In this document: piece by piece, positions 18,635 to 34,567 of the stretch | Layout: every line of letters starts with the position of its first letter | How positions within the stretch are numbered: position 1 is the stretch's first letter | Assembly (NCBI RefSeq): GCF_000196115.1 | Contig: NC_005027.1 | Coordinates: forward strand, 5,824,001 to 5,888,000 | DNA from: Rhodopirellula baltica SH 1 | GTDB lineage: Bacteria > Planctomycetota > Planctomycetia > Pirellulales > Pirellulaceae | Direction of reading: 5' to 3' | Length of the DNA: 64,000 bases | Notes under the pieces: model-generated | Told to the model about the DNA's origin: nothing | The model's database searches: none | Seen by the model: only the letters and a program-made list of their open reading frames with translations | Position numbers and translations under genes: made by a program

Positions 18635-20493
18635 ATTTCTTCTCTCTCTTGGAGGTATTCCAAGAACCAGGGGTACTCCCAAATCCAGTCCCTCGAAACA
18701 GAACGTTGGCGAATGAGGCCAGCGGAGCAAGCCTCATTGAATAACGCGACTGCAGTTTGCAACGAACATCCAGAATCTGTTGCGGGTGTTATCCAGTGGT
18801 CCCGGTATTTGCGGGGCGTCAATGGAGGTTCCTGTGACGATCTTGCGGCACTTACAAGTATTATGAGCAAGTCATAACGTCGCAAAGTAGCAGGAATTCT
18901 GCGGTTGCACTTTAAGCGAAAACGATTGAAATAGTGCTCCGACATGAGTTGCAAGCTCCCTTCACCGCCGGTCAAGAAGAGCCGTTGTTTTTCGAGAGGT
19001 AATTCGGTGAATATTCCCCATAGTACAGGGCGGTATAGAAGTTTCAGATGAGTCGAGTTGGCAGAAATGCGGTTTTCGGCAAGCACACTGGATTCACCAC
19101 CGACGTCGAACTGTATGCGATTCTCGATCAGTTCACGAACGCCGGGATCTATGATGGTAGCGGCGAGTTCCGCCATTTCCATTGGGGTGAACGTCTCTAT
19201 ATCGAAAGTGTGTTTGGTTTCGCCTTCTGTGCAATGCTTATGATTGAAGATGTCCTCCCAGTCGTCGTTTTCCCGACAAGTTACAAGTAGAGTTGTATCC
19301 CAGTCGCCATCCAAACGCTCATTGAGAGAACGCAATGCAAGTGCCTGGATGAAGTTGCTTGCATTGGCTGGAAGTGCGTCGAGTCCGTTTCGCTCATCTG
19401 CACCATCAATGCACACTGCAAGCCTGGGAGTCTTCGGGTACGCGACACTCAGTCGTGCCAAAGAACGATCCAACGATGAGCCGTCTTCAGTAAGGCGTTG
19501 ATTTCGCCATGCAGCAATTTTCTCGATCAGTCTCGATTCGGTAATCTCGTAGGCATGCTCGACAATGCAGAATCCTGGCGGGTTCACGTTGTCTTCAGTG
19601 ATAGCTGCGGCGGCATCAAAGAGGGCAACCGATTTCCCCAGACCACCCTTTCCCGTCAGCAATACGATGGGGAACTGGCAAACTGCATTTACAATGTCCG
19701 CGACTACGCTACGCGGCATTGTCGAGGCCCCTCTGGTTTCTAATTCTCGACGTTCATTGATGTTTTTCTCTCTTACAAGACGAGAGCTTGTATCAAGAAG
19801 GCGATAGGGCGACGGAATGCCAGTCAAAGCTTTGAAACAATCTACAGCTGATACTTCGCGTCTACCGCTTCTGCCAGACGTTTGGAGTAGAAGCCCGAGT
19901 AGTTCGTTCACTCGCGTCTCTAGCTCCTGTGGCAAAACTCCGAAACGAGCGGCTTCACGTTCCAGTTTTTGAGTAAGATTTGACTCGTTCGTTGGATCGT
20001 AATCAAGCTTGATGAAAATTTTTGCTAGCAACTCGGCGTTGGGAAGATCGCCAGTTTGCTTTGAAGCTCTTAGCTTCTTCACGATGGCCTGGGCCTTCTG
20101 GTGGTGCGTCAGCTCATTGTTCAATCGGATGTCCCAAAGTTCCTGAACAGCGTGCTCCCATGTCATGTTGGTTGTCAATGTGAAACCGCATTCATCTACT
20201 GATCCACCAGCCTCGTTGGCACTCACCAACATCTTTTCAAGGATATCGAGAAGAGAGGCTCTCGAAGTTGAGCGTCCGGTGCTTGTGAATTTGTATTGGT
20301 TCAGGACCTTCAGTTGACCATAGCTGTCCACGGTTGCACTGTCCTGGCCGTAACGCTCAAGCAACAGCACGTCGCGTGGAGAATTTGGATCATCGAACTC
20401 GCTGGATAACTCGATGATCTCAACGCCATTGCCAAGCAGTTGGAAAATGAATCCTGCGAGTGAGTATCGCCCCGCTTCTGCGGTATTGCTCAA
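18631..20493 (-). CDS. STAND-type P-loop NTPase with nuclease-like N-terminus
   Basis: 620 residues from TTG 20493 (AGAGAG upstream; TTGA overlap with the previous stop; no ATG or GTG start is available). Residues 281-288 (GKGGLGKS) form Walker A and 358-366 (LAVCIDGAD) Walker B, with TTLLVTCRE after it as sensor 1, typical of STAND/NACHT-like ATPases. The N-terminal 110 residues (AGRYSLAGFIFQLL... LKVLNQYKFTS) resemble the start of DUF4297/Cap4-type nuclease domains; Q66-Y-K68 may be the QxK motif, but the acidic residues are not certain. The C-terminal part is helical with DWIWEYPWFLEYL. In defence systems such proteins sense infection and trigger an effector. Confidence 0.75.
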   Translation of the reverse strand: MSNTAEAGRYSLAGFIFQLLGNGVEIIELSSEFDDPNSPRDVLLLERYGQDSATVDSYGQLKVLNQYKFTSTGRSTSRASLLDILEKMLVSANEAGGSVDECGFTLTTNMTWEHAVQELWDIRLNNELTHHQKAQAIVKKLRASKQTGDLPNAELLAKIFIKLDYDPTNESNLTQKLEREAARFGVLPQELETRVNELLGLLLQTSGRSGRREVSAVDCFKALTGIPSPYRLLDTSSRLVREKNINERRELETRGASTMPRSVVADIVNAVCQFPIVLLTGKGGLGKSVALFDAAAAITEDNVNPPGFCIVEHAYEITESRLIEKIAAWRNQRLTEDGSSLDRSLARLSVAYPKTPRLAVCIDGADERNGLDALPANASNFIQALALRSLNERLDGDWDTTLLVTCRENDDWEDIFNHKHCTEGETKHTFDIETFTPMEMAELAATIIDPGVRELIENRIQFDVGGESSVLAENRISANSTHLKLLYRPVLWGIFTELPLEKQRLFLTGGEGSLQLMSEHYFNRFRLKCNRRIPATLRRYDLLIILVSAARSSQEPPLTPRKYRDHWITPATDSGCSLQTAVALFNEACSAGLIRQRSVSRDWIWEYPWFLEYLQEREEI

Positions 20494-20687
20494 TTTAAAC
20501 TCTCTGATGCCGCCTGGAAGTTTATTTGATACTTTCGTTTCGTTTGCATCTTTTCGTGCATTGCACGCGGGACTCTTCGGTTAGTCGGTGCTTCTGATTT
20601 CGCTTTTTCGCAATGTGCCTGCGAGACTAATTCGTCCTGAAGTGTATTTGATAAAGGAGATCCGTTCCGCTTGCTGCCCAGGTTCAT
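20490..20687 (-). CDS. 65-aa basic protein coupled between nuclease-like and STAND genes
   Basis: ATG 20687 overlaps the previous stop as ATGA, and its own stop overlaps the STAND start as TTGA, so it is fitted exactly between the two genes. The protein is strongly basic with no transmembrane segment (SKRNGSPLSN...AHCEKAKSEAP...RAMHEKMQTKRKYQ). No recognised family. It could be a small regulatory partner or simply a translated leader that couples expression to the STAND gene. Confidence 0.6.
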   Translation of the reverse strand: MNLGSKRNGSPLSNTLQDELVSQAHCEKAKSEAPTNRRVPRAMHEKMQTKRKYQINFQAASESLN

Positions 20688-21271
20688 GACATTTTCTTGA
20701 AGTTCAGCGGGCGGTGGATGAGCGAGAAGTGTTTGCGGGATTTGGAGCGACTCTGGGTCAGCATTCCTTGCAGTAGTCGTGATGCTTTGACTTCTTCAAC
20801 GAGGACGCCCATCAGGTCTTGCCATTCGTCGTTGGTGGGTTCGTAGTCGACCCAGGAGGCCATGAAGTCAAAATTCAGGCCGTGGCGGATGAGACGTCCG
20901 GGCAATGGATAATGGTTCCGTTTGCCGAGCAGGATCCCGTACCGCAGGTAGGGATGCACGTTCTTATGAGTTGCCGCTTTGGTGCTGTAGGTGAGCGCGT
21001 CATGCGTGGTGACGGTTTTCTGTTTGCATTCAATGACGACTCTTGGGATCCATGTTTCATCCTCGAATTGGTCGTAGATGAGCACGTCTGTTTGGTATTG
21101 GCTGGTGCACTGTTCGCCTGGTTCAGTGTCGGAGTAGCTCAGCACTTCAAACGCATAGGGAAGCTTCTTGCCCGCCTCGACGCGCACCGTCGATCCCTTG
21201 AGGGACACAGACTGCATCCTCTTTTGCAGTTCCTCAATGAACGTGTCGACCCACTCTCTTTCACTAGGCAT
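20684..21271 (-). CDS. PD-(D/E)xK-like nuclease domain protein
   Basis: 195 residues from ATG 21271, overlapping the hsdS stop by 8 bp. Residues 61-65 TDVLI supply a candidate catalytic Asp (D62) and 79-85 VIECKQK the E-x-K motif (E81, K83), separated by a strand and loop, as in the core of PD-(D/E)xK nucleases (and the HsdR N-terminal domain, HSDR_N_2 type). Upstream is a helix and a conserved-looking glycine-rich turn. The remainder (YLRYGILLGKRNHYPLPGRLIRHGLNFDFM) resembles that same family. An additional restriction-like nuclease in the operon, separate from HsdR. An N-terminal extension to 21346 lies inside hsdS and is rejected. Confidence 0.75.
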   Translation of the reverse strand: MPSEREWVDTFIEELQKRMQSVSLKGSTVRVEAGKKLPYAFEVLSYSDTEPGEQCTSQYQTDVLIYDQFEDETWIPRVVIECKQKTVTTHDALTYSTKAATHKNVHPYLRYGILLGKRNHYPLPGRLIRHGLNFDFMASWVDYEPTNDEWQDLMGVLVEEVKASRLLQGMLTQSRSKSRKHFSLIHRPLNFKKMS

Positions 21272-22916
21272 TCGACGCTGCTTTTGCTGTGGTTGCTTTT
21301 TTCTTCTTCGATGTGTTTTTGGCTGAGTTGGCCACGCGTTTTGCACGGATGCGAGCGAGGAGTTCGGAGGCGGGTTCGTCGCGTGGGTCCTGCGGGACCA
21401 ACTCGCCTCGGAACGCTTTCGAGAGGATGGATTGGTCCAGTTGCGTCAGCGACGATTCCATTGAGGCTAAACCGCTCGCCACCGACGTGCAGGCTTCGTC
21501 ATTCGTGACAAGTAAGTCAGCGACGGCTTGCTGTTCGGCAAGTGGGGCGAGAGCGATCGGCGCATCCAGGATTTTGCCCTGCGAGAGATTACGCATCGAG
21601 TTGCTTGTGCCAGTGGCGTTGTCTTCAAAAAACTTACGCACCGACTCAGACCGTAAGCCGTAGAGCAAATACTCCGGCACCAGTTCCTTTGAGGCAGGAT
21701 TCATGCGAAGTGTTTTGTCCGACAGCATTAAGTTCGGGTAGTCTGCCTTGACGAGCACCACCGCACCGATGAGCTCGACCGTGTTCGCACGGGAAATTAG
21801 TAGATCGCCTTTCCGTGGCGTCGGCGTATCTCCGATTTCGTCACCGTCCTTCAACGCTTTGTTTGCGTTGGGATCGAATTCTCGCCAAGTCACGGCGCTG
21901 ACCTTCAAGACACCATATTCGCCATCTCGTGCAGGGTGCGACAATGCCGTTGGACTTCGACCCGCATCGAAGGACTCAATGAGGTCTCCGACTTGACACC
22001 AGCACCAGCCGTCCGGCAGTTCGGGCAACTCCGACTCATCAACCGGCTCCGGTTCCTTGTACTTGTCCTGCCAGTTTTTGGGGGGCTGTTTGCCTTTGGC
22101 TTCGTACTTCGCGAGCTGCTCGGCTTCCCAGCGTTCTCTTCGCTCGGTGCGGATGCGTGACAGCAGTTTGAAGGCCGGTTCGACATTGGGGTTGGCCTCT
22201 CGCCAGTCTGCCGTCAGCTTCCCACTGAAAGCATCGCGCAGCACACTCTGACGAAGCTGACCGATCAGCGGCCCGACTTCCGAAAGCAAAAACCGCGCAC
22301 GCGAACTACGCTCCTGAAGCGACTCGATCGCCGACACGATACGAGACTGCTCGGCGAGTGGGGGAAGTGGAACTTGCGTTGCTTCAAACTTGCCCTTCGT
22401 GACGTGTCGCAACCCGACTCCTCCATGCGCCTTTCCAATCAACTCTTCAAGTTTGTGATTGATCGCAAATCGGAAGAACGTCATGTTCAAGTCATCTTCG
22501 TCGATAAGCACGCGGAAGATGTGCTGATTGAGCAACGCCTTGGGGCCGTTCCAGATGTGCGCTCCGAACGAGGTCCCCGGTGTACCTGACCAAGCGAAAA
22601 GAAGCTCGCCGGGCCGAACGAGGTGCTTGTCAGCGTACTCGCCGTCGAAGTGATTGTATTTGGCTTCGGCTTTATTGAGGTTTTGAATCCGAATGATCGG
22701 AAGCCCTGTCTCACTCCATTCCTTTGGCTTGAAGGCGCGTCCATTGACGAGATCGCAAAGGTCACCAATTGGAACGTCAGCCCAGCCCTCCGGCAACGCT
22801 TCTCCACTGGCACTCTCGCCGCCGGACCGTGCGACTTCCACCGACTCGCCCCGCGACAATTTATCCTGTGTCGGCGTCTGTTTCTGTTTTGCCGGACTCT
22901 GTTTTTTAGCGATCAT
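21264..22916 (-). CDS. hsdS: Type I restriction-modification specificity subunit HsdS
   Basis: 550 residues, ATG 22916 overlapping the hsdM stop as ATGA. Determines the DNA target of the complex. It has the classical two-half architecture: first target-recognition domain about residues 45-200 (WADVPIGDLCDLVNGRAFKPKEWSETGLPIIRIQNLN), a central conserved helix (LAEQSRIVSAIESLQERSSRARFLL), second domain about 300-460 (DGWCWCQVGDLIESFDAGRSPTA), then the distal conserved helix (LAPLAEQQAVADLLVTNDEACTS). The linker near 255-295 is acidic and proline-rich. A C-terminal tail is lysine-rich (AKNTSKKKKATTAKAA). Partner of hsdM and hsdR upstream. Target sequence cannot be read from the protein. Confidence 0.95.
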   Translation of the reverse strand: MIAKKQSPAKQKQTPTQDKLSRGESVEVARSGGESASGEALPEGWADVPIGDLCDLVNGRAFKPKEWSETGLPIIRIQNLNKAEAKYNHFDGEYADKHLVRPGELLFAWSGTPGTSFGAHIWNGPKALLNQHIFRVLIDEDDLNMTFFRFAINHKLEELIGKAHGGVGLRHVTKGKFEATQVPLPPLAEQSRIVSAIESLQERSSRARFLLSEVGPLIGQLRQSVLRDAFSGKLTADWREANPNVEPAFKLLSRIRTERRERWEAEQLAKYEAKGKQPPKNWQDKYKEPEPVDESELPELPDGWCWCQVGDLIESFDAGRSPTALSHPARDGEYGVLKVSAVTWREFDPNANKALKDGDEIGDTPTPRKGDLLISRANTVELIGAVVLVKADYPNLMLSDKTLRMNPASKELVPEYLLYGLRSESVRKFFEDNATGTSNSMRNLSQGKILDAPIALAPLAEQQAVADLLVTNDEACTSVASGLASMESSLTQLDQSILSKAFRGELVPQDPRDEPASELLARIRAKRVANSAKNTSKKKKATTAKAASNA

Positions 22917-24436
22917 TCTCGACCTTCACTGCCAAGGCCACCCGAACCACTGCTGGCGAGGCTCGCCGGTTCCAGCAGCTCGGCAAGCGCGTCCATCTCG
23001 GCAAGCGCCTCGCCCAGACGCTCGCGGATCATCGCCGCGATCTCGTCCGGCTCCGCAAGCTCACTGCCGCTGCCACCGGCGCTATCGTCCTGCAGCCAAC
23101 TGATGTCGAGGTTGTCGCCTCGCTCACGCACGAAGTCTCGCGAAAAGACCCGGAAGCGGCTCTCCTCGCCTTCGTGAACGGTGTCGTCTTCATAGAGGGC
23201 GGGACAGGTTTTCTTGCCGCCCGTCTTCTCGGTCCGCTTGCTGGTGCCGTCGGCTTTCTTGCCGTAGCACTTCTCGAACTCGGCGAAGTGTCCGTGCGTC
23301 AGCGGCGTCCGCTTGCCGAAGGCGGGCATGTTCGTCCGCAGGTCATAGACCCATGTTTGCTTCGTATTGCCAGTGTCTGTTTTGCCTCGTGTGAAGAACA
23401 GCACGTTGGTCTTCACGCCCTGTGCGTAGAAGATGCCCGTGGGCAGCCTGAGGATCGTGTGCAGGTTGCACTTGTCCATCAGGTCGGCGCGGATGCGTGT
23501 GCCGACACCTTCTTCGAAAAGCACGTTGTCGGGCAAAACGACGGCTGCTCGACCGCCGGGTTTCAAGCCGCGATAGATGTGCTGCAGGAACGCGAGCTGT
23601 TTGTTGCCGGTGACGAATGTGAAATCGTCTCGGGTGGGTTTGCCTCCGCCGCGTTTGGTGCCGAATGGAGGGTTGGTCAGGATCACATCGGCGTTGGGCA
23701 GGTTCTGGCCGATGCTGCCCATGGAGTCACCGCTAGCTAGGTGCCCGCCGACGCCGTGTAGCATGCAGTTCATCACCAACAGCCGGTGCGTGTCAGGCAC
23801 GAGTTCAACGGCATGATAGGCTTGCTGCTTTTGAAAAACTTGTTCGTCGGCATCGAGGTCGAACAGGTCATCGGTTTGGTTGCAGATGTATTGGTGAGCG
23901 GCGATCAAGAAGCCACCGGTGCCAGCCGCGGGATCCTGGATGACCTCACCTGGTTGAGGACGCATGCAATTGACCATGCATTCGATCAACGGACGTGGCG
24001 TGAAGTATTGACCGGCGCCGGACTTCTTTTCGCTGGCGTTTCGTTCGAGCAAGCCTTCGTACATGTCGCCGAGCCCTTCTTCTCGAGCGACGTACCAATC
24101 CAGTTCGTCGAGATCCTGGACGAGTTTGGAAAGGTTCTTGGGCTGACGAAGCGAGGTGTTGGCGTCCGCGAAAACACTCTGCACTCGCGGGCTGCCTTCG
24201 GTGCCAAGGTGAACCAGCATGGCTCGGTAGAACGCAAGTTGTTCCACGCCGTCTTTGCTTTCGAGATCGCTCCAGCGGTAGCCGTCGGGGAGCTCGGATT
24301 CTTGGCCGGTTTCCTGCATCATCTTCAGGAAGAGCAGGAAACTGAGCTCATTAACGTAGTCTTGGTAGGTGATGCCGTCGTCACGCAGGACGTGACAGAG
24401 AGACCACAGTTTGCCAACGATGTCGTTGGTATTCAT
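22913..24436 (-). CDS. hsdM: Type I restriction-modification methyltransferase subunit HsdM
   Basis: 507 residues, N6-adenine DNA methyltransferase. Motif I DPAAGTGGF at 168-176 binds S-adenosylmethionine and the catalytic NPPF is at 255-258. The N-terminal helical region (DIVGKLWSLCHVLRDDGITYQDYVNELSFLLFLKM) is the HsdM_N domain. Starts 21 bp after the hsdR stop; ends in an ATGA overlap with hsdS. Methylates the host site and forms the core of the restriction complex. The C-terminal acidic/alanine-rich stretch (LAEPDEIAAMIRERLGEALAEMDALAELLEPA) is probably a coiled-coil contact with HsdS. Confidence 0.96.
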   Translation of the reverse strand: MNTNDIVGKLWSLCHVLRDDGITYQDYVNELSFLLFLKMMQETGQESELPDGYRWSDLESKDGVEQLAFYRAMLVHLGTEGSPRVQSVFADANTSLRQPKNLSKLVQDLDELDWYVAREEGLGDMYEGLLERNASEKKSGAGQYFTPRPLIECMVNCMRPQPGEVIQDPAAGTGGFLIAAHQYICNQTDDLFDLDADEQVFQKQQAYHAVELVPDTHRLLVMNCMLHGVGGHLASGDSMGSIGQNLPNADVILTNPPFGTKRGGGKPTRDDFTFVTGNKQLAFLQHIYRGLKPGGRAAVVLPDNVLFEEGVGTRIRADLMDKCNLHTILRLPTGIFYAQGVKTNVLFFTRGKTDTGNTKQTWVYDLRTNMPAFGKRTPLTHGHFAEFEKCYGKKADGTSKRTEKTGGKKTCPALYEDDTVHEGEESRFRVFSRDFVRERGDNLDISWLQDDSAGGSGSELAEPDEIAAMIRERLGEALAEMDALAELLEPASLASSGSGGLGSEGRE

Positions 24437-24457: not shown

Positions 24458-27400
24458 TTAAGTGGCCGTTTGCCAGATGCTGGTGATGATCGACTGCATG
24501 ACTTCGTTTAGGCGACCATCGAAAACTTTGTCGATCTTCACAAAACCACCGTGGTCCTGGAAGGCGCCGACTTCGAAGAGGTCACGATCGATGACCACGT
24601 TTTCTTTGATTTGCTTGCCGATTCGTTCCAGCCACTTTCTTTGCTGCGGTTGCCACTTTTGGCTGGTCAGGATGGATCGCATCGCTTCGTCGACCCGTTC
24701 TTCATAGGGAAGCAAGGGTTCGTTGAGCATGGCATGACGAACGAAGCCGAGAATACTCGCGGCGATGTCTTGATTGGTTGTGTCTTTGACGGCGGACTTG
24801 ATGGCAGTTTCGTTGAATCCGTGTTGCTCAAGTTGCAGTTGCAGTTCTTTGAGGTCTTTTCGGGTGAGATCTCGTGGTCGTGTGGTCACGAGGATCAGAG
24901 CTGGGATGTCGGTTTTATGCTCAACAAGGAATTGGCGGAACGATTCGAGGTAATCCTCTGGTTTCTGATTGCCACCGTATCCGCGCTCGATGCCAACCAA
25001 CGCATCGGCATGTTCCGAAATGATGATCGAACCGTCTGCCTTCCGTTGATCCAGTTCAGTGATCAAAGATGCGTGATCCGTGAGCCATTGTTGGAGTTCT
25101 GCGTCGGAGGAACTGGCCCACAAATCAGAGATCGCCTCGGGCGTGTCGCCCGCGAGAAGTTCAAAGGTATCGAGCCAGTTCTTGTTGATCGAAGGCGTTT
25201 TGCGTCGTAGTTTGGCGACGAGTTGTTGTCGGATGTCCGCATGTGCGTCCGGGTCTGAGCTGCTCTGGAAGAGTTCGACCAGCTTTTTGAACATTGTGAA
25301 TGGCTTGGCCACCACCGGTTTCATGTCGGTGTGGTCTTGCAGGGCTTCGTAGACCCCGACCGCGTCGTAGATGTGAAAGTACTCCTTGTCTTCGCCATCG
25401 AAAAACAAGTCTTTGCAGAGTCGAGTCGCGCGACCGATCATTTGATCGAACAGAATGCGGCTTTTCGTCCGTCGTAGGAACACGACGTTGGTGATCTCAG
25501 GGACATCGATTCCCGTCGTCAGCAGATCGACCGTGACGACGTATTTTGGGATGGGTTCATTCTTGAAACGACGGATGGCTTCCGAAGTGCGTTCGATGTC
25601 GCCGGTGATCTTTTTGACGGTGTCGTGTGGTTGTGGTCCGTGTCGTTGCTCAATCGCTGCTGTCAGCAAACGCACGACCATGTCCGCATGAGTGTCGCGA
25701 ACGCAGAAAATCAACGTCTTGCCGGGTTGCGTGTGATCGATTTGCTGGGCGAGGACGTCGCATACGACCTGATTGAAGCTTTCCGTGATCGCCAGCCGGT
25801 TGAACCCATCGATTTCAATGTCGATCTCATCCGGTGTCGTCTCGTCAGCGATACTTTTCGTGACGGTGTCGAAGTATTTCACCGTCTCGCCTGCATCCCA
25901 GTGCATTCCGCTTTCGGAGAGTTCCGTGAGAATGATGAACGGTGGTTCGTGGTCGACCAAGTTGTTGTCGATCACTGCTTGCCGATAGCTGTACTGATAG
26001 ACCGGGCTGCCAAAAATCTCGGTCGTGTGAAGAGCGGGTGTGGCGGTCAATCCGATCCGTACAGCATCGAAATGATCCAGCACTCGGCGGTATTTGGAGA
26101 CGTAATCGAGTTGGTCTCGATAGCCGAGCTCCTCTTCGCTCATATCTCGGTCGAGCGTGTAGCCGCGGTGGCATTCGTCGATGACGATGCAATCGTATTG
26201 GTCGACGGGGTACGGTTCGGAATTGCTGTCCTGGTCAACCACTCGTTTGACCATCGACTGAATCGTGCACAGGTGAAGCTTCGTTTCCCGGTCTGGCTTC
26301 ACGTCGCCGAGTTCCTTGACGTCGTAGATCTCAGGGAAGGACTGGTTCTGTTCGAGTTTGACGTCTTTGAATGCATCGAATGCTTGCTCGCCGAGGGATC
26401 GACGATCCACGACGAACAGAATGCGATTGAACCGGCTGGCTTTGATCAGGCGATACAGCAAACAAATCGCTGTGCGTGTTTTGCCGGTTCCCGTGGCCAT
26501 CGCGAGCAAAATCTCGGTTTGGTCTTTGGCGATGGCTTTTTCGACCGCCTCAATGGCATCTCGCTGATAGTAGCGGAGCGGCAGGTAGTCTCGCGGTTCG
26601 GTTTCTAGCTTTGCATTGGCAGCAGGGATGTCGAGCTTGAGCAGATCCTGCAGGCCTTCCGGTGTGTACCATCCGGTCAACGCACGTGGGTGATTGGTTT
26701 CAACACGAACGTCCCGAAACCAAATTCCGCTTTGGTCGATGAGCTGTCGGTGAAATGGAGTGCCATTGGTGGAGAATACAAACGGAACGCTGTACTCGCC
26801 CCATGGGCCTCCGGGCTGGACATAGTCCGAGGACATCCGGAACGACTTGGAGTACCGGTGTGCCTGATCGATTGCCGACCGGGCATTGCGCCGTTTCCGT
26901 TTGGCTTCGACCGTTGCGATGGGAGTGAGGCCGGTGAACAGGACATAGTCAGCGATTCCATCGTCGGTTGGGACTTCCGCGATGGCCATGTTCCGTCCTT
27001 TTTGCGGACGAATTCCGTTGGCGTATCGAAGTTCTGAGGTGTCGGCTTCCCATCCGGCATCACGCAATTGCTGATCAATCAGCTTGCGGGTGTCGAATTC
27101 ATCGAGACTGATCTCTTGTGCCGCTTTCTGCGAGGCCTCAATGATGTCTTCGCGAGCTTCGGCGGATTGCTCTGCGTTCTTGGCTGCGGTCTCGCTGAGC
27201 AATCGTTCGTAGTCTTCGATCCTCTGCTGCAGTGTCTCTTCGGTTTCGGCGGCAAGCTCCATCGCTGCCTGTTCGTTGCCTTTGGCCAGTTCGTAGGCGG
27301 ACTGGCGATCACGAACGACTTCGCCGAGTTTCTCGGACTCCGCTTTGGCGGCGTCCAATTCGGCCTGCTGCTTTTCGACTGTCTCTCGAAGTCTCGCCAG

Positions 27401-27874
27401 CTCTTCAGAGAGTTGTTCGTCTCCCTGGGCTGGATCAGCGGGAGGGACGAATGGACCTGCGTGGAAGTTGTTTGCACCGCGGACCGTTTTATGGAACCAA
27501 ATCGCCAGTTGCCGAACGAGTTTCAAGCAATGCAGTGCGTCTCGCCTTTCCCCTGCCAGCGAATGAGCGGCGGAGTTGCCCTTCTGTCGAACCGTTCGCA
27601 TCACGTCGCGAAGCTGTTGGTTCAGGATCCCACTGTCACGCAGTCGACGTTCAACGTTGACGAAGTCTTCCTGCGATCCGGTGGCGATACCGAGTTCCGC
27701 AGCGACCTCGCGGGCGAAGAACTCAGCAAGCTGCCTCAGCTTGACCAAGGCTGTGTTCGGGTCATCGAAGACGTACCGCTCGGCGCGCAGCGCATGGGCG
27801 AGAAGTACAGGCTGGTAGCCTTCGAGGAACCAGAAGTTTCCTGGATGATCTTTTGGTGTCTCGCCTTGTCCCAA
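24458..27874 (-). CDS. hsdR: Type I restriction endonuclease subunit HsdR
   Basis: 1138 residues from TTG 27874, the first start codon after an in-frame stop at 27884-27886. Domains: a DUF4145-like N-terminal helical domain (about 20-135), a coiled coil (about 155-255), the nuclease domain with D309 (IADYVLF) and E323-A-K325 (VEAKRKR), then a superfamily 2 helicase: TGTGKTR Walker A near 461-467, DECHRGY at 566-572, and later GLTATPA, TTGIDVPE and IGRATR motifs. It translocates DNA and cleaves when the site is unmethylated. First gene of a seven-gene leftward operon that includes hsdM, hsdS and the STAND module. The coiled-coil insertion distinguishes it from classical EcoKI-like HsdR. Confidence 0.95.
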   Translation of the reverse strand: MGQGETPKDHPGNFWFLEGYQPVLLAHALRAERYVFDDPNTALVKLRQLAEFFAREVAAELGIATGSQEDFVNVERRLRDSGILNQQLRDVMRTVRQKGNSAAHSLAGERRDALHCLKLVRQLAIWFHKTVRGANNFHAGPFVPPADPAQGDEQLSEELARLRETVEKQQAELDAAKAESEKLGEVVRDRQSAYELAKGNEQAAMELAAETEETLQQRIEDYERLLSETAAKNAEQSAEAREDIIEASQKAAQEISLDEFDTRKLIDQQLRDAGWEADTSELRYANGIRPQKGRNMAIAEVPTDDGIADYVLFTGLTPIATVEAKRKRRNARSAIDQAHRYSKSFRMSSDYVQPGGPWGEYSVPFVFSTNGTPFHRQLIDQSGIWFRDVRVETNHPRALTGWYTPEGLQDLLKLDIPAANAKLETEPRDYLPLRYYQRDAIEAVEKAIAKDQTEILLAMATGTGKTRTAICLLYRLIKASRFNRILFVVDRRSLGEQAFDAFKDVKLEQNQSFPEIYDVKELGDVKPDRETKLHLCTIQSMVKRVVDQDSNSEPYPVDQYDCIVIDECHRGYTLDRDMSEEELGYRDQLDYVSKYRRVLDHFDAVRIGLTATPALHTTEIFGSPVYQYSYRQAVIDNNLVDHEPPFIILTELSESGMHWDAGETVKYFDTVTKSIADETTPDEIDIEIDGFNRLAITESFNQVVCDVLAQQIDHTQPGKTLIFCVRDTHADMVVRLLTAAIEQRHGPQPHDTVKKITGDIERTSEAIRRFKNEPIPKYVVTVDLLTTGIDVPEITNVVFLRRTKSRILFDQMIGRATRLCKDLFFDGEDKEYFHIYDAVGVYEALQDHTDMKPVVAKPFTMFKKLVELFQSSSDPDAHADIRQQLVAKLRRKTPSINKNWLDTFELLAGDTPEAISDLWASSSDAELQQWLTDHASLITELDQRKADGSIIISEHADALVGIERGYGGNQKPEDYLESFRQFLVEHKTDIPALILVTTRPRDLTRKDLKELQLQLEQHGFNETAIKSAVKDTTNQDIAASILGFVRHAMLNEPLLPYEERVDEAMRSILTSQKWQPQQRKWLERIGKQIKENVVIDRDLFEVGAFQDHGGFVKIDKVFDGRLNEVMQSIITSIWQTAT

Positions 27875-28197: not shown

Positions 28198-28968
28198 ATG
28201 ACCAATTCCACGGCGGCCAGAATGCAATGTTCAACGTGCGGCAGAATTCTACGGTATCCAGTTTCCAAAGCCGGGGCGGTAGTCAAGTGTCCGAGGTGTT
28301 CGGATTTGCTGCGTCTTCGCAAACCGGATGCGTCGCCCCTAATTGCACCTGAACCAGACGTTGAACCTCAACCTGGCGTGAATCAAGGTTTGCAAACGAA
28401 CGAACCAGCCGATTGGGATGCTGAACCCATCGAGGGTCCCGCGGCGATCAGAGAATTCAAGGCATTCCTGGCGACTGTCTGGCCTGGGTGGATTATCGGC
28501 CTGGGACTTTTCGCGTGGCTGTACTTTTCTGTTGTGAACTCGCAAAACTTGCCGCTGTTTTGCTATCCCTCCATTGCACTTGCTGGTGTTGGTGGCACTG
28601 TTATTCTCTCGCGTCGTTCCGGCCCCCGAACAGCAAAATGGATCGGCATACCGATCACATTGGCTGCAGTGGTTGCTTGGGGGTATTTCGACACCTACGA
28701 AAGTACCTGGCACAACGAAAACGTCCGATTCACCGACACCTATTCAAGATGGGGAGGCAATCTTGTCTACCGAGATCTCGACATCTTCGAGAATGAGGCG
28801 AGACAGGGACTGCCAGTCTTTTCCGAGGAGGGACCAATGGCCGGGACCGGCCGACCACATGGTGAGTGGAAGGTGATGATCTGGAAACCAGATCTCCGTA
28901 GCGAGACACAATTTTATTGGTACGGAGAAGAGATCGACGAAGGGGAGTGGTACTTGCGCAATCGATAA
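28198..28968 (+). CDS. Zinc-ribbon membrane protein, unknown function
   Basis: 256 residues, ATG 28198 with GAGGAG upstream. Near the N-terminus two C-x2-C pairs (MQCSTCGR..., VKCPRCSD) form a zinc ribbon, followed by a proline-rich linker, three hydrophobic segments (about 95-165: WPGWIIGLGLFAWLYFSVV, LPLFCYPSIALAGVGGTVIL, WIGIPITLAAVVAWGYFDTY) and a polar C-terminal domain with repeated Gly/Trp motifs (GEWKVMIWKPD, YGEEIDEGEWYLRN) that suggest a MORN-like or beta-hairpin fold. Lies between the restriction operon and the mobile core, in the opposite direction. A membrane-anchored role is likely; linkage to the defence operon is speculative. Confidence 0.65.
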   Translation: MTNSTAARMQCSTCGRILRYPVSKAGAVVKCPRCSDLLRLRKPDASPLIAPEPDVEPQPGVNQGLQTNEPADWDAEPIEGPAAIREFKAFLATVWPGWIIGLGLFAWLYFSVVNSQNLPLFCYPSIALAGVGGTVILSRRSGPRTAKWIGIPITLAAVVAWGYFDTYESTWHNENVRFTDTYSRWGGNLVYRDLDIFENEARQGLPVFSEEGPMAGTGRPHGEWKVMIWKPDLRSETQFYWYGEEIDEGEWYLRNR

Positions 28969-29117
28969 GCCATTGAACAATTGGCTCGTTGCCGCTGTTT
29001 AGAAAAACGGTTTGGATCAGACCTTTCGTTTGCGTTAAATGTTGTGCCACGATCAGCTCTGCTTCTCGATCACACTGTTCGCCTGAAGAAGGGACGCTCT
29101 TTGTTCCGCTGCCTTGC

Positions 29118-29160
29118 CCGCTACAGCTCCGTTCTTTTGGGATTTCTGGAGCTGTAGCGG
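29118..29160. terminator. Perfect 13-bp hairpin between convergent genes
   Basis: CCGCTACAGCTCC (29118-29130) pairs with GGAGCTGTAGCGG (29148-29160) around a 17-nt loop. It sits between the stops of two convergent genes (28968 and 29194), which suggests a shared terminator, although neither side is followed by a strong T run. Confidence 0.55.
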
Positions 29161-29193
29161 TGTACTTCTTGGTTTTGCAAGTCGTGTGTCGAA

Positions 29194-29529
29194 CTAGCGA
29201 TCCATGTTTTTCAGTTGATCAAGCAAATCCAGGATGGCCTGTTTGCGTCGATCAACGACAGGTTCGCACGCGGAACATTTCCATTTGCCGGTGACGTAGA
29301 GGACGTCACATTCTCGACCGCATCGAGGGCAGCGACATTCTTGGTCCGCGGTGGAAATCTGGGAGACCATCCCGTGATCGTCCAACAAGAGCTGTTGCGA
29401 CTCAATGAGCAGGTTGATCGGAACGGTCTTGATCGACCAGATGTCAATCATCTGATCATCGATTTTGACCGAACCGACTGCCAGAGCAAGCAGCTTTCGC
29501 TGCAGATTTTGCTTTGAAACGTTACACAT
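29194..29529 (-). CDS. Small zinc-ribbon protein of island core
   Basis: 111 residues from ATG 29529, overlapping the stop of the ATPase gene by 8 bp. The C-terminal half carries C-x-C-x2-C...C-x2-C (CRCPRCGRECDVLY...KCSAC), a zinc ribbon, followed by a short helix. The N-terminal half is beta/alpha without known motif. Overlap with the primase-like ATPase suggests a shared role in island replication or regulation. No family recognised. Confidence 0.65.
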   Translation of the reverse strand: MCNVSKQNLQRKLLALAVGSVKIDDQMIDIWSIKTVPINLLIESQQLLLDDHGMVSQISTADQECRCPRCGRECDVLYVTGKWKCSACEPVVDRRKQAILDLLDQLKNMDR

Positions 29530-31126
29530 TGTTCGAGTCCTCCAAATTTGCATCGTCGAGAAGGTCGTTGACGTCCGGAGGTGAAGTACCGGAGTCCTCC
29601 CCGCCAACGCCGCAATGCTGCGGAGCTCGGGGTTCACCTCCATCGTCGACCTCCTGGATCGCGATGATCGTGCGGTGCTTGTTCGAGTACGTATCGAAGT
29701 CAACTTCGATCCCGGCTCGACGCATCACGGGAGCCAGACGCCTGAGCTCACCGCCAAGTGCCTTCGGTGTTGAAGGAATCAATCTTTTCTGTCCCGGGTC
29801 ATGCTCCGCTTGGCTTTCCAAAAGGTCCAGCCAATCGCTGATTTGCATCGGTTCAGGGTTCTGCTGCAAGCATTCACGAATCAGGCCGATCAAGGGCTTG
29901 TCGTCGACCAGTGCTTGATTGGTCGCCTGGATGTTTTGGCTGTAAAGCCTCATCCAGCCTCCCGGCTGCAATCCCATCTCTGTCTCGGCGGCGGTAGCAA
30001 ACTGTGCGAAATCAGCCATTCGAGGAAGCTCAGGGATAAACACAGAATCCAGATTGCGGAGGCCAGCGGAAAGTAGTTCCAGCAAGCCGCCGAAAATCGC
30101 CGGAGCATCACGTTCGAAGTCGGACCAAATTTCTTTCTCTGTCCGACGACTACCCTTTTGAATCGTCGGCAGAGTGATGGAGATCGTCCGGTCGGCGAGG
30201 TCTTCGCGTGATGCTACATTTTCAATGGCAGTCAGGATGATGGGGCGTTTCGACTCAAAGATCACCTCTTCGTCGTTGGCGTACAACGCACGCGTTGAAA
30301 AGCCTCCGCCCGTCGATAGACGACAAAGAGCATCCGACAACGATGTAGAGATGGAACTCAGGTTGTCGAACGCCACAACTCTTCCGTTGTTGGCGGCAAT
30401 CGCAAGGTCTTGGGTTGATTTCGGCGCGGCTCGGATTGGAGACCGGTTCGGATCGACCAATGATCGCAGCATACGTGCCGTCGTCGATTTGGCTGACCCT
30501 TGTTCTCCCGAGAGCATCAACACCGGGTATGGACCCGACGGATGCAATGCCATCATCAACCAAGAGATCATCAGGTAGAAGTCATCGTCTTGGATATTGA
30601 TGTATTTCCGAAGGAGATCGAGGTCAGTTCCGTCAGGAGTCGGCAGAGATTGCATCGCCGCAGGGCGAACAAAGTTTGCGGAGACTGACGGAACAAATCG
30701 AACGTCACTCGCTGTGACTTCGATTGCTTGCCAGCGATCGTTGCACAAGTCAATTAGGATCTTGGATTCGTTGCCAGCAACCCGGATCGCCGGGGTTCCT
30801 TCTTCACCCTCGAAAATTGCTTTGCCCTCGAGCGTGGAAATGGCAGAGCCAATGCTGTTTGGGTTGGCAACGCGTCCATACGTTTCGTAAAACCGCCGTC
30901 CAATCAATCGTTGGAACTGTCTTGATTTCAGCGAATGAGTTTCTTGGTGACTGTCAATGAGAATCGTCGCGTAGGCGTTTCCGTCGGAACCGCTGTTCCA
31001 AAGCTGGCAGTCTTTTTCAGCGAGTTTGACGAGCAGCGTTGCGTCGCTGCTGTCACGTTGGTCGCGGTTCGGGATTTCGGATTCGCCAGTTCGAACCGAA
31101 TTGAGTTCTGGGGTATTCACCGACAT
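29522..31126 (-). CDS. Primase-helicase-like AAA+/SF3 ATPase of island core
   Basis: 534 residues from ATG 31126, one-nucleotide overlap (TGATG) with the upstream DUF1580-like gene. Walker A at 207-214 (GEQGSAKS) and a candidate Walker B at 250-255 (VVAFDN) with hydrophobic context (AANNGRVVAFDNLSSI), followed by conserved-looking FESKRPIILTAIENV as a sensor. The N-terminal 190 residues are mixed and could hold a cryptic primase-like or regulatory domain. Such helicases copy phage satellites and integrative elements. The C-terminal tail is disordered (GTSPPDVNDLLDDAN). Confidence 0.75.
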   Translation of the reverse strand: MSVNTPELNSVRTGESEIPNRDQRDSSDATLLVKLAEKDCQLWNSGSDGNAYATILIDSHQETHSLKSRQFQRLIGRRFYETYGRVANPNSIGSAISTLEGKAIFEGEEGTPAIRVAGNESKILIDLCNDRWQAIEVTASDVRFVPSVSANFVRPAAMQSLPTPDGTDLDLLRKYINIQDDDFYLMISWLMMALHPSGPYPVLMLSGEQGSAKSTTARMLRSLVDPNRSPIRAAPKSTQDLAIAANNGRVVAFDNLSSISTSLSDALCRLSTGGGFSTRALYANDEEVIFESKRPIILTAIENVASREDLADRTISITLPTIQKGSRRTEKEIWSDFERDAPAIFGGLLELLSAGLRNLDSVFIPELPRMADFAQFATAAETEMGLQPGGWMRLYSQNIQATNQALVDDKPLIGLIRECLQQNPEPMQISDWLDLLESQAEHDPGQKRLIPSTPKALGGELRRLAPVMRRAGIEVDFDTYSNKHRTIIAIQEVDDGGEPRAPQHCGVGGEDSGTSPPDVNDLLDDANLEDSNNV

Positions 31127-31416
31127 CACAGTCCCTCCTGGCTGAGGGCTTGCATCGCGTTGTTGTGTGCGGTGGACAGATTGATTGGAGCGGGCCGGGG
31201 GCTCTCGCGATGCAAAGACTGTTGAGTGTTCGCTTCGATGTAGCGGCGAACAGCTTCGACGGAAGTCATTCGCCGACCGCCAATCATCCAGGATTCCAAC
31301 ACGTTGCCGTGCCTGTTGGGTTTCAAAGACCACCGCATGGCAGTGCTGGGATGGGTGCGATGGCCGGTCTCTTGCTCAATCGCATCGAGCAAAGGAAGAA
31401 GCTTTTCTGATTGCAT
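31126..31416 (-). CDS. DUF1580-like small DNA-binding (excisionase-like) protein
   Basis: 96 residues from ATG 31416 with AGGAG about 9 nt upstream. The N-terminus MQSEKLLPLLDAIEQETGHR is followed by HPSTAMRWSLKPNRHGNVLESWMIGGRRMTSVEAVRRYIEA, matching the planctomycete DUF1580 family, whose pattern (T..RW...G..G..LE.....GGRR.TS.EAL.R) resembles winged-helix excisionases. A likely directionality or regulatory factor for the adjacent integrase. Longer TTG-initiated readings exist but have no ribosome site. Confidence 0.75.
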   Translation of the reverse strand: MQSEKLLPLLDAIEQETGHRTHPSTAMRWSLKPNRHGNVLESWMIGGRRMTSVEAVRRYIEANTQQSLHRESPRPAPINLSTAHNNAMQALSQEGL

Positions 31417-31471
31417 GTTGTGCAACTCCTAGTGAAATACGGAATGTTCACTAGGATCAGAGCAAATTGGA

Positions 31472-32872
31472 TTAAGTCTCCGCGCTCTTCTGCGCTCTTC
31501 CGCGCTTTCGCGCGCTCTCCCAATCAGATTTTTCTTGGATAACCAGCGAAAGACGCTCGCATGCTTCGGATTTTACCCATAGTTTCTCGATGCGAAGGGG
31601 AATGAGCACCCTTCGAAAGTAGTTGTTGGTTCTGCTACTTAAACTATTCACTGCGGATTCAGACGGTTCTGCGTTTCGGCTACCCCAAACACGCCCTGCA
31701 AGTTGACTGACAAGAAGGCTATGCTCGTTCTCTTCGATCGATTCCGGCTCCGCGGAGAGTAAAGCATCAATCAGTGTTCGTGACATGCCAGGAGGTTTTG
31801 ATCCTTCGGGCATCTGTCTGCTCAGGAGTATTTCCTCAGCGACTTTTCGTCGTTCAGCATACGATTGCTCCCTAGGTATCTCGGTCGTTGGTTGTTCCTC
31901 TTCTTGCGGCCTGGGGAAGGCTGTAACACGCGTTTCCTTCGTGCCGTCAGCATTCGTATCCGCAAATAAGCTTTGCCCAGCTTGCTTATGAATCCCACCC
32001 TCTGGTTCAGCGAGAGTCAGAGAGGAAGTCAACGAACTAGATCTTGAAGTTTCGATTCGCTGGTTTGGTGTTTCGTCGTTGATCGCTGCCTCAATCTGTG
32101 AGACTTCCTTTTCGACCAACTCGCGTAGGTAGTGTCGAGCTGCCTTTAATATCCGCGGTGTGATTTTCCCGTCCAATGCGTATACCCAGTCCATCCAAAT
32201 GAACATCGCTTGCTTCGAAATTGGCGGTAGTTGTTCCGTGTCGAGGAAAGACTGCATCTTTTCTCTTTCGGTTTGATAGTAGTCGCGTCGCGTTTGCAAT
32301 TCCGCTTGGGTGCGATCGTCATTCGGGTGCTTCTTGAGATGCTCTGCAATGAGGCTCTCGCGGAGCTTCTCGAGTTCGCGCTCGAGACACTTGAATTCCG
32401 CTTTTTCACGTATCACTTCATCCGGGAACGTGAAGTGGAACGGAACTACCGGCGAGACACACCCCGCAGGAATGGCTTGCGAATCGGGCACAATGTCGTG
32501 TGCTAAATAGTCGCTTTCAAAGTCTGTGGCAAACTCCTGTGGTGACAGATGAATTGCTAGAGCGATTAGGTATTCGTCATCGGACAGGCCCGTTTCGACG
32601 CGTTCTTCGATTGGGGCATGGCTGAGCGTGCCTTTTTCGAGTAGTTCTCTCTCGCAAAGCTCTGAAACAACTTGGCGGAGAACACGTGGCTCCATCGCAC
32701 GTGCGAAAAGCTCTCTTGAAAAGAAGGGGGAATCCACGGCAGGCAAACTAGGAAAAGGTTCATGTTCGAGATCCACAACGGAATGTGAGACCACTGGTTC
32801 TTGCTCGGTGGCGCACCCCGGTCCCGGGGCAAAAATTTTTCCCGACGTGCTCTTGAGGGAACGAGTTACCAC
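31472..32872 (-). CDS. Hypothetical 466-aa protein of island core
   Basis: 466 residues from GTG 32872 (start uncertain). Acidic N-terminal 130 residues, a long helical and charged middle region (about 150-270: LERELEKLRESLIAEHLKKH, RRDYYQTEREKMQSFL) that may form coiled coils, a disordered Ser/Thr/Pro segment, and a helical C-terminus with a basic tail (ESARKRGRAQKSAE). No catalytic motif seen. It lies between the integrase and the DUF1580-like gene, a position held in other integrative elements by replication initiation or regulatory proteins, but I have no direct evidence for that. The coding 3' end contains a gcgctctt short-repeat tract. Confidence 0.6.
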   Translation of the reverse strand: MVTRSLKSTSGKIFAPGPGCATEQEPVVSHSVVDLEHEPFPSLPAVDSPFFSRELFARAMEPRVLRQVVSELCERELLEKGTLSHAPIEERVETGLSDDEYLIALAIHLSPQEFATDFESDYLAHDIVPDSQAIPAGCVSPVVPFHFTFPDEVIREKAEFKCLERELEKLRESLIAEHLKKHPNDDRTQAELQTRRDYYQTEREKMQSFLDTEQLPPISKQAMFIWMDWVYALDGKITPRILKAARHYLRELVEKEVSQIEAAINDETPNQRIETSRSSSLTSSLTLAEPEGGIHKQAGQSLFADTNADGTKETRVTAFPRPQEEEQPTTEIPREQSYAERRKVAEEILLSRQMPEGSKPPGMSRTLIDALLSAEPESIEENEHSLLVSQLAGRVWGSRNAEPSESAVNSLSSRTNNYFRRVLIPLRIEKLWVKSEACERLSLVIQEKSDWESARKRGRAQKSAET

Positions 32873-33036
32873 GAGATTTGGACGTTATCAGCACTGTCTG
32901 GGAAAGTGCGGCGTTGCAGTGTCTGCGGCGTCCGTAGTCAGATGCAATGTCTGCTGGTCTTTGCAAACCTTTTACCAAATCAGCCGCTCGTTTTGGAGCG
33001 GCGTTTGCATTCATCTGATCTTCGAATCAGAGGTTG

Positions 33037-34281
33037 CTAGCCAACCTTTCGAGCGATTTCGATCCCTTTGGCAATGTCACGTTCCGCGTAGATCTGCGTG
33101 ACATCAGCATTCTTGTGGCCGAGAACCACTTGAGCTCCCTCCAGTCCGAATTGTTGGCGAATCACCGTTCCGCGAGTGTGCCGCAGACGATTGGGGCTCC
33201 AGCGATGTTCCGACCGCCATACCTTGATTTCATCTGCAGTCAGGCCTTCGGGGCCAGGGAAGGCTTTGTCGCACGCATTGTGAATCGCACGCCGGTAGCT
33301 GTCAGTCGTGTATTCAATACCGGGGGACTTCTTCGACTTTTTGCCTCGCAGTCCACCTCGGTCGTATTTCCGGCCCCGCCGATTTCCACATGACTTGGGA
33401 GTCTTGCGTTTCGCGGCACGTTCTGCCCTTCGCTGTTCCACTGCATCAACGGGGCGGAACAGGCAATCGTCCTCGCCACGATCCAAGTACGGCTTGAGAA
33501 TCGATTGTGCTTGAGGACCAATGAAAAGAAGTCGGCTGTGCCCGTGCCACTGTGTTTTGTGTTCCGTGACGGTTGCCACCCAAACATCTTCGGAACGATC
33601 AATGCATCCAGGCGTGAGCTTGCAGATTTCGCCAGGCCGACAACCGATCAGCAATTGAACACGAACCATGTCCCTGACGACTGGCGTGAGCATTGGGAGA
33701 GTGGCTTCGACGACCGATTCCTCGACAGGAAGAACTGGTTCCGTATCCGGAGCCTCAGTGCGACCGCTCTTCAATCCTGGGATCAGACGCAGGGTTTCGA
33801 ACACCGATGCGGGAATCTTTCCTTCGGAAGCTGCCCATTTGAACATCCGGACGATGCGCTGCATGTGGTGATTGATGCCCGGCCTGGAAAGGCCATTGTC
33901 AATCATTGCTTGGCGAACCGCTTTGAACTGTTGAGGGCCAAAGTCAGCTGCAGACGAATTCGCGTACAACTGCTTCACCGGCTTCAACGCAGCCTTGATC
34001 CGATGAAGTTCGGATGACTTGCCGTCTCCGTAGTAGCTGCGAGCGTAGTTCACGTAATCCAGCATGATCATCGCGACGGTCAGCTCCTGGGATTCCAATC
34101 CGAAGTTCGGGCTTCGCCCACTCGCGAGATACTCTATGACGACTTGGTCGTAGGCGTACTTGGATGTCCGGCTGTTCCAGGGGCCGAGATAGTAGTCACG
34201 CCCGTTGATGGTGACTCGGGCTTGTCCGCTGGAGTGTTTGCGGTACTTCGGGACCGCACCTTTTGAATGAAGCATGAGCAT
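33037..34281 (-). CDS. int: Tyrosine recombinase (integrase) of the genomic island
   Basis: 414 residues from ATG 34281 (ATG 34275 also possible). It has the catalytic set of the tyrosine recombinase family: first Arg in LLIGCRPGEICKL, then H-x-x-R in NRLRHTRGT, His in VLGHKN and the Tyr in VTQIYAERD. A core-binding SAM-like N-domain precedes it. The gene begins 110 bp from the tRNA-Arg and reads away from it, as expected for integrases that use a tRNA attachment site. A lysine-rich loop (AKRKTPKSCGNRRGRKYDRG) interrupts the catalytic domain. Confidence 0.93.
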   Translation of the reverse strand: MLMLHSKGAVPKYRKHSSGQARVTINGRDYYLGPWNSRTSKYAYDQVVIEYLASGRSPNFGLESQELTVAMIMLDYVNYARSYYGDGKSSELHRIKAALKPVKQLYANSSAADFGPQQFKAVRQAMIDNGLSRPGINHHMQRIVRMFKWAASEGKIPASVFETLRLIPGLKSGRTEAPDTEPVLPVEESVVEATLPMLTPVVRDMVRVQLLIGCRPGEICKLTPGCIDRSEDVWVATVTEHKTQWHGHSRLLFIGPQAQSILKPYLDRGEDDCLFRPVDAVEQRRAERAAKRKTPKSCGNRRGRKYDRGGLRGKKSKKSPGIEYTTDSYRRAIHNACDKAFPGPEGLTADEIKVWRSEHRWSPNRLRHTRGTVIRQQFGLEGAQVVLGHKNADVTQIYAERDIAKGIEIARKVG

Positions 34282-34390
34282 CACTTTCAATACCTTGCGG
34301 GTATTTACCCACAAGAAGACTTGCAAAAGTGTGCTCTGCCAACAGCGGCAGGTAATCGTTTTATCAACGAATCACGGGGTTAAACGCCAA

Positions 34391-34464
34391 TACACCCGGC
34401 GGGGTTCGAACCCACAACCTTCGGCTTCGGAGGCCGACGCGCTATCCAATTGTGCCACGGGTGC
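34391..34464 (-). tRNA. tRNA-Arg (anticodon CCG), island target
   Basis: 74 nt on the minus strand, without encoded CCA. The acceptor arm GCACCCG pairs with CGGGTGT with one G-U; the anticodon loop reads CTCCGAA, giving anticodon CCG (codon CGG); the T arm GTGGG-TTCGAAC-CCCGC (one G-mismatch tolerated) is canonical. The 44 bp from 34391 to 34434 are repeated at 12348-12391, marking it as the integration site. Confidence 0.9.
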
Positions 34465-34567
34465 ATGGGAATGAGCGTAGCCCATTCACGAAAACCATTG
34501 TGACGGATCAAGACAGGTTGCGACAGATGACTGTCGGGGTGGCGCTCACGCGAGTTAGGGCTGTTGT

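Follow-up and report, generated by a model that had tools for sequence, protein, structure and literature searches.

A tRNA-Arg island of Rhodopirellula baltica SH 1 with a satellite-type replication module and type I restriction genes

Background

The minimalist satellites of Vibrionaceae, the phage-inducible chromosomal minimalist islands (PICMIs), are described in passages of PMC10803314 as consisting of an integrase, a variable gene, an AlpA-type regulator and a DUF3987 or DUF5906 primase, with the variable gene between int and alpA falling into 13 families and a 4-nt overlap with int as the most frequent arrangement. Tycheposons are a further group, named in passages of PMC11389934 and PMC10803314. 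Here we describe an island at a tRNA-Arg gene of Rhodopirellula baltica SH 1, within positions 5,824,001-5,888,000 of the forward strand of the 7,145,576-bp contig NC_005027.1 (the window, 64,000 nucleotides, whose own numbering is used below). At its tRNA end the island encodes a tyrosine integrase (Int), a 466-aa protein, a small DUF1580 protein, a D5-like ATPase and a zinc-ribbon-like protein, and its cargo includes type I restriction genes. A first-pass annotation of the window had likened this set to the integrase-Alp/Xis-primase modules of phage satellites, a likeness borne out by the fold of the ATPase, the gene order and the neighbouring genes.

Like PICMIs, the family to which the island belongs has a variable gene after the integrase and a small putative regulator, with DUF3987 or DUF5906 proteins in the replication slot of other members. 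Unlike PICMIs, which in passages of PMC10803314 have a fis site and an AlpA of PF05930/PF12728, the island has a tRNA site, a DUF1580 protein, a larger size and restriction cargo; no AlpA model and no DUF3987 or DUF5906 was listed for the window proteins, which places it outside that group. With the Staphylococcus aureus pathogenicity islands (SaPIs) and other phage-inducible chromosomal islands (PICIs) it has in common an integrase, a small putative regulator and a Rep helicase nearest to SaPI5 Rep, and some of its sisters carry part of a head gene set. It differs from PICIs in having DUF1580 as the putative regulator and no detected capsid or small terminase (TerS) gene, capsid-redirecting genes being outside the search, and it does not have the own capsid and packaging genes of a capsid-forming PICI. 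Tycheposons are integrated at tRNA genes with a tyrosine recombinase, a replication gene and variable cargo, as is the window island; they belong to a different host phylum and the likeness is one of description only. Staphylococcal cassette chromosome (SCC) elements use large serine recombinases, ccr. The gene at the tRNA end of the window island encodes a tyrosine integrase; its helicase, like Cch and Cch2 of SCCmec in passages of PMC7581432, is of the D5/SaPI5 type without a fused primase, and the Cch2 type of SCC has a CCPol-MP primase. Among the open-access papers searched, with subscription papers and preprints outside the scope, we found no paper naming DUF1580 and none joining phage satellites and planctomycetes.

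Results

The island is integrated at tRNA-Arg

A tRNA-Arg(CCG) gene was located by ARAGORN on the minus strand at 34390-34465, and a repeat search found an attachment site (att) copy on its side at 34391-34434 and a far-end copy, corresponding to the 3′ part of the tRNA, at 12348-12391. The two copies of 44 nt differ at one position and lie 22,043 bp apart, and 43 of 46 positions match compared to 26 of 46 at the next best place. In the congener G527 (locus L311), an intact tRNA gene directly connects the left and right flanks, so that the att copies and this empty site together place the element at about 12,391-34,390. The att copies, the intact tRNA and the empty site in a relative identify a site-specific tRNA integrative element, in which the integrase uses the 3′ part of tRNA-Arg as its recombination site. 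Among six congener stretches covering this site, only G527 was cleanly empty and G537 was occupied, L314 had a second att-like copy 3.7 kb off, and L312, L313 and L315 were assigned to neither state. The 308 bp beyond the far att copy (12041-12347) are 98.7% identical to G527, compared to 86.5% for the opposite flank, which suggests that the far flank was exchanged recently.

The five genes named in the first-pass annotation were all confirmed as open frames on the minus strand, including the overlaps of one base between the DUF1580 and ATPase genes and of 8 bp between the ATPase and zinc protein genes. The integrase (414 aa, 33037-34281; PF00589 4e-9, PHROG integrase 4e-23) begins at a distance of about 110 bp from the tRNA-Arg end, and in an alignment R215, K242, R367, H389 and Y398, residues with catalytic roles in tyrosine integrases, are present, with N364 where the HxxR box usually has His. 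The 466-aa protein (31472-32872, GTG start) occupies a variable slot, X, between Int and DUF1580 (96 aa, 31126-31416; PF07618 1e-35). It matched no Pfam or PHROG family above the cut-off, primase families included, and was found in one of 146 genomes of the order (its own) as well as in the congener island L310. The ATPase (534 aa, 29522-31126) has its Walker A motif, GEQGSAKS, at residues 207-214, and the zinc-ribbon-like protein (111 aa, 29194-29529) has six Cys within residues 65-88; the latter had a homologue only in L310 among the loci searched, with one more weak match in L051 (E 0.004).

The ATPase has the predicted fold of a SaPI5/D5 replicative helicase

Pfam, PHROG and PADLOC gave only weak P-loop matches for the ATPase, and its class was assigned from an AlphaFold model built on an alignment of 45 sequences (predicted local distance difference test, pLDDT, 86.5; predicted template modelling score, pTM, 0.84). 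The best fold match was to 7ola_D, the SaPI5 primase-helicase, at Z 17.8 (324 residues aligned, 3.7 A), with 7om0 of the same protein at Z 17.1, followed by poxvirus D5/E5 (Z 14-16) and then AsfvPrimPol, PriRep1, NrS-1 and SCCmec Cch (5dgk, Z 12.0). Residues 16-413 of the model correspond to residues 332-690 of SaPI5 Rep, and the ATPase is therefore the helicase half without a primase. The Walker A motif, D254-N255 and a D-R motif at 309-313 are intact and conserved, and fold, Walker A and arginine region together place the protein among the D5-like/SaPI5 Rep helicases. It is not a Pri-Rep, as it has no N-terminal primase domain and no primase Pfam match. The earlier description as a primase-helicase-like ATPase thus stands for the helicase and not for the primase. 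The modelled fold, predicted with confidence, groups the ATPase with replicative helicases of the SaPI5/D5 type and not with a non-replicative family, and such a helicase would be the putative replication initiator of the element. A sequence search of the PDB had been uninformative compared to the fold comparison, since the rows shown were nearly all P-loops of ABC transporters.

Some relatives of the ATPase do carry N-terminal Prim-Pol, NrS-1-type, DUF3854, PriCT, BT4734-like, AEP-TOTE or Toprim domains, and several of 27 aligned family members match profiles named primase in PHROG. The family was present in 31 of 392 sampled Planctomycetota genomes and 20 of 146 genomes of the order, at no fewer than 469 loci (at least) in a species-level genome collection, in 148 stretches of viral contigs, in 28 plasmid records and in one phage (two records). 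Just past the helicase and zinc protein genes, a repeat search found a perfect 13-bp inverted repeat with a 17-nt loop (29118-29160), identical in L310, which we conjecture to be an origin element; at 28900-29300, beside the helicase, this palindrome was the only repeat structure and no direct repeats (iterons) were seen.

DUF1580 occupies the position of an AlpA/Xis regulator

The AlphaFold model of the DUF1580 protein is a predicted winged helix (pLDDT 86.0, pTM 0.64) with fold scores of Z 5.3 for 2kvv, Z 5.1 for 8dgl and Z 3.5 for TorI (1z4h), and Foldseek returned no match below E 1. In sequence, PF07618 was the only good Pfam match, and the PHROG_66 excisionase scored E 0.28. In the order, 65 of 146 genomes contain DUF1580, whereas 14 control genomes yielded none. 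By analogy of position, between integrase and replicase as alpA in PICMIs, DUF1580 is most likely the equivalent of AlpA/Xis.

The Int-X-DUF1580-Rep order recurs at tRNA genes with different cargo

The integrase family was found in 77 of 146 genomes of the order, often several times per genome. Forty regions, chosen mostly for integrase similarity and so not a random sample, were compared, of which 39 carry the integrase. In these 39, a tRNA on the same strand lay within 600 bp in 26, DUF1580 lay at most 6 kb downstream in 26 and both were true of 18, counts in which L262 and L287 score one integrase twice and the own left integrase of L287 is unscored. The common order is Int, a variable X protein (~ 120-460 aa), DUF1580 and a replication protein (Rep). 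The X proteins are mostly dissimilar, with small groups having C-terminal parts in common, and Int and X overlap by 4 nt in 3 of 19 loci measured.

The replication slot was held by Prim-Pol+DUF5906, Prim-Pol+AAA_25, DUF3987 (as in L267 and L271), D5_N/Pox_D5, DUF3854+DUF5906, Toprim+AAA_25 or the window-type ATPase. A Pfam primase or helicase was present within two genes after DUF1580 in 12 of 16 other loci scanned, a count in which 10 of the 16 proteins had been picked by size (651-870 aa), all 10 matching primase or helicase families. In L262 and L274 the first gene after DUF1580 (355 and 371 aa) matches no replication family and lies ahead of HsdM, in L286 a 469-aa gene has none, and in L284 a 403-aa gene without one precedes a window-type ATPase. 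In L377 and L396, a large gene (793 and 788 aa, respectively) is named Rep by position only. The suggestion of a five-gene core recurring at tRNA sites with varying cargo therefore holds in part: the module is found apart from this locus, at a tRNA-Asp, at other tRNAs and in L310, and it is Int-X-DUF1580-Rep that recurs. The five genes as a unit were rejected, because the 466-aa and zinc proteins are confined to a few loci and the ATPase mostly occurs without DUF1580.

Within the stretches at hand, att copies of at least 42 nt bounded 13 of 31 tRNA-adjacent loci, 11 of them exact (42-53 nt) next to the window (43/46) and L287 (44/46). Each copy starts in the anticodon arm (tRNA positions 30-34), and the elements so delimited measure 10.3-46.5 kb. 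The repeat of L267 is only 21 nt long, L250, L266, L276, L280 and L283 had no convincing repeat, and none was seen in the stretches of L252, L254, L258, L261, L265, L268, L270, L277, L278, L279, L284 and L285 as first fetched and unextended, several of which end at contig ends. A second batch gave att copies in 4 of 22 loci (L377 and L396 new, L264 and L271 already counted). In three cases the next integrase lies approximately where the att repeat predicts, at offsets of 13,891 versus 13,889, 22,576 versus 22,588 and 15,135 versus 15,134 bp; these three matches are tandem accretion, and the loci with tandem elements are L396, L287/L262 and L272/L263.

Related islands in the same genome and in a congener

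A second copy of Int, 466-aa homologue, DUF1580 and ATPase lies at a tRNA-Asp of the same genome (L032), within exact 45-nt repeats 21,434 bp apart. Identity to the window is 72% for Int, 59% for DUF1580 and 54% for the ATPase, all three open in L032, and 23% over 181 residues and 35% over 40 for the 466-aa homologue, whose C-terminal part is common with the X protein of L251, itself similar to that of L274. A zinc protein homologue was not found in L032. Among 27 other Planctomycetota loci with the ATPase (L032-L058), single-sequence searches found the 466-aa homologue in L032 only; integrase matches were confined to L032, L041 and, weakly, L055.

A search of 13 genomes of the genus turned up a further ATPase copy only in the congener G537, where an island of 24,666 bp (L310) sits at the same tRNA-Arg between exact 47-nt repeats. 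Its identity to the window is 96% for hsdRMS, 95% for Int, 93% for a 282-aa protein, 91% for the zinc protein, 83% for a 256-aa protein, 81% for the 466-aa protein and 76% for the ATPase, unequal values that point to mosaic exchange. By eye, the DUF1580 gene of L310 is cut by an IS66-like transposon (4580-7322). Downstream of hsdS, the 620- and 1060-aa genes of the window are replaced by an AAA-type gene (535 aa) and an HNH-like gene (292 aa), a pair that we read as Septu-like from a PtuA entry in the cargo tally and by eye. Elsewhere in the R. baltica genome, a third related integrase was observed near a tRNA-Lys (L250), with DUF1580 ~ 12 kb downstream and no att repeat within 60 kb, and a fourth DUF1580 was observed at 2,162,547.

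Head and packaging genes occur in sister elements and viral relatives

Several att-bounded sisters contain head or packaging genes. L271 (10,889 bp, tRNA-Met) has Terminase_4, Phage_capsid and a Clp-type head protease, L377 (10,252 bp, tRNA-Ala) one capsid gene, and L396 (15,134 bp, tRNA-Asn) a portal (PF04860 3e-107) and a TerS-profile match, while L264 (11,039 bp, tRNA-Val) has an S49 protease matching the PHROG head maturation protease, which alone could be non-phage. In L378, DUF1580 directly precedes a capsid gene at a contig end, and L379 has a capsid gene and a gene resembling the large terminase subunit, TerL (PF03354 3.6e-8), with no att found. The head genes of sister elements include an HK97-type capsid. 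Of the 28 places in the order that match Phage_capsid, at least four follow a family Int on the same strand, 5.2-6.7 kb downstream of it, compared to ~ 0.09 expected by a crude estimate from 268 Int matches, pieces included, and an average genome size of 5.8 Mb; the corresponding Poisson probability of 2e-6 is overstated, since islands cluster. Wider stretches were seen for 19 of the 28 places (L271 and 18 more), and the Int profile matched four of them.

In viral contigs, a head or packaging profile match lay at most 10 kb from the ATPase in 16 of 80 loci, 11 with portal and capsid, 8 of which also have TerS and TerL. These eight contigs (L148, L149, L150, L152, L153, L164, L166 and L169) have the order ATPase-portal-capsid-TerS-TerL on one strand, in stretches of 11.9-19.9 kb, and judged by these gene sets are possible capsid-forming satellites; L152 and L169, judged by eye, appear to start with a P4-type integrase. 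L139 (7.9 kb) has Int-DUF1580-ATPase-TerS, and L063, from a Planctomycetota metagenome-assembled genome, has Int, then DUF1580-ATPase, then TerS; by gene content both are the module of the first-pass annotation plus a packaging gene. A search with the integrase alignment found relatives in 44 viral contigs of 7-96 kb, 8 with a capsid-profile match and 15 with DUF1580, compared to one relative with a single integrase sequence; single DUF1580 or 466-aa sequences found none in viral contigs.

Cargo of the island and its relatives

Beyond the core, the window island carries a plus-strand gene for a 256-aa protein of unknown function (28198-28968) and then, on the minus strand, HsdR (24458-27874; PADLOC 4e-243), HsdM (22913-24436; PADLOC 3e-213) and HsdS (21264-22916; PADLOC 4e-81) of a type I restriction system. 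Distal to these lie 220-, 620- (P-loop) and 1060-aa proteins (15548-21346, minus strand). The 620- and 1060-aa genes (15548-20493), a stretch that differs in L310, gave no PADLOC match at 0.01 and are a candidate undescribed defence pair, as judged from sequence. The 282-aa protein (13169-14017, minus strand) stands near the far end, as does its copy in L310. A cargo scan of 62 proteins from 8 elements, with L253, L260, L274, L275 and L282 outside it, was available as tallies of 25 of 57 PHROG and 25 of 245 PADLOC families without per-protein assignment. In the set that includes the L032 genes, DUF499, DUF1156-methylase and PLD-helicase models had single matches, assigned to L032/L317 by gene sizes and order.

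Discussion

A satellite-type reading of the module and its family is supported by these results. With modest confidence, we take the window island to be an integrative element with type I restriction that excises, replicates and is probably mobilised by phages, its dependence on a helper being inferred. In such an element, DUF1580 would bind att or promoter DNA and switch the element to excision, and the D5-like helicase would open an origin, perhaps at the downstream palindrome, and load in hexameric form, which would allow the excised circle to replicate. Primers might come from a host or helper primase or, as a guess, from the 466-aa or zinc protein as a partner. The excised and replicated DNA would be packaged by an infecting phage, the most likely route because some sisters with the same kind of Int, DUF1580 and replicase slot carry capsid, portal, TerS or protease genes. 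The restriction cargo would protect the host, so that the element is retained, and is compatible with satellite life, given that many satellites encode anti-phage systems according to passages of a review, PMC11389934. For the family, a broader proposal is possible and falls somewhat short of even odds: that Planctomycetota have their own large family of phage satellites, Int-X-DUF1580-Rep elements at tRNAs with freely exchanged replicases, ranging from head-bearing to defence-bearing and all moved by phages. Equally tentative is a division of its head-bearing types into single capsid, TerS with capsid and protease, and TerS with portal.

Several observations weigh against phage mobilisation. 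As the first-pass annotation had noted, structural genes are missing: the 148 open reading frames of the island gave no match to purpose-built capsid, TerS, TerL, portal and protease profiles, tail genes not having been searched by model. The whole genome likewise gave no match to three HK97-type models, PF05065 (capsid), PF04860 (portal) and PF03354 (large terminase), so that any helper would need to arrive from elsewhere. A full head set was found in none of the elements of the order (tail genes again not searched by model), and the window-type ATPase is in none of L271, L377, L396, L378, L379 and L264. At 22 kb the window island exceeds its head-bearing sisters (10-15 kb), and other members have 25-46 kb between att copies, with mostly unscanned cargo, too large for small phage heads. 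Among 80 genomic ATPase loci, no more than four have a head or packaging match, all with TerS and one also with capsid, and 3 of 27 Planctomycetota ATPase loci have an unverified TerL-profile match only. The best DUF1580 fold match is weak (Z 5.6), in a set that includes excisionases and MerR-type domains. Finally, the window-type ATPase, this Int and DUF1580 were seen together at six loci only (the window, L032, L310 with its interrupted DUF1580, L284, L139 and L063); of the 27 other Planctomycetota ATPase loci, DUF1580 is in L032 alone, with no more found by profile searches, and the ATPase is thus mostly without it.

An SCC-like cassette, which would excise and replicate and be transferred by uptake, generalised transduction or conjugation, the head genes of sisters having been acquired separately, would fit the lack of a detected packaging gene in the window island, the elements reaching 46 kb and the ATPase relatives in 28 plasmid records. 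Passages of PMC7581432 describe SCCmec Cch and Cch2 as helicases related to SaPI Reps, with a separate primase in the Cch2 operon, so that such a module can serve other cassettes, and the fold score of Cch against the ATPase model agrees with this relation. We nevertheless hold it to be rather unlikely, given the capsid, TerS or portal genes inside att-bounded sisters of 10-15 kb and the ATPase-portal-capsid-TerS-TerL order of the eight viral contigs. Less probable still is a resident defence island that has lost its mobility, with the module a relic and only the restriction genes under selection. The interrupted DUF1580 of the congener, and hsd proteins 96% identical next to a helicase at only 76%, would agree with such a relic. 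Against it, no core gene of the window is interrupted and the key residues are preserved, and another tRNA of the same genome has a second copy in which the Int, DUF1580 and ATPase frames are open. A decayed temperate phage that lost its structural genes is very improbable, despite the integrase relatives, capsid-profile matches and DUF1580 in viral contigs, since the compact Int-X-DUF1580-Rep order recurs often with unrelated cargo, including at two tRNAs here, and is bounded on either side by att copies in a fair share of the loci, so that repeated independent decay is hardly plausible.

Conclusions

The island is a tRNA-Arg element whose module joins a tyrosine integrase, a putative DUF1580 regulator and a helicase with the predicted fold of SaPI5 Rep, alongside type I restriction genes. 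Rhodopirellula baltica SH 1 is a cultured strain, and its genome, with two open-core copies at two tRNAs, offers a test system. If the family consists of satellites, a major phylum would be added to satellite biology, DUF1580 would be given a role, and a route would be suggested by which restriction and defence genes spread among planctomycetes.

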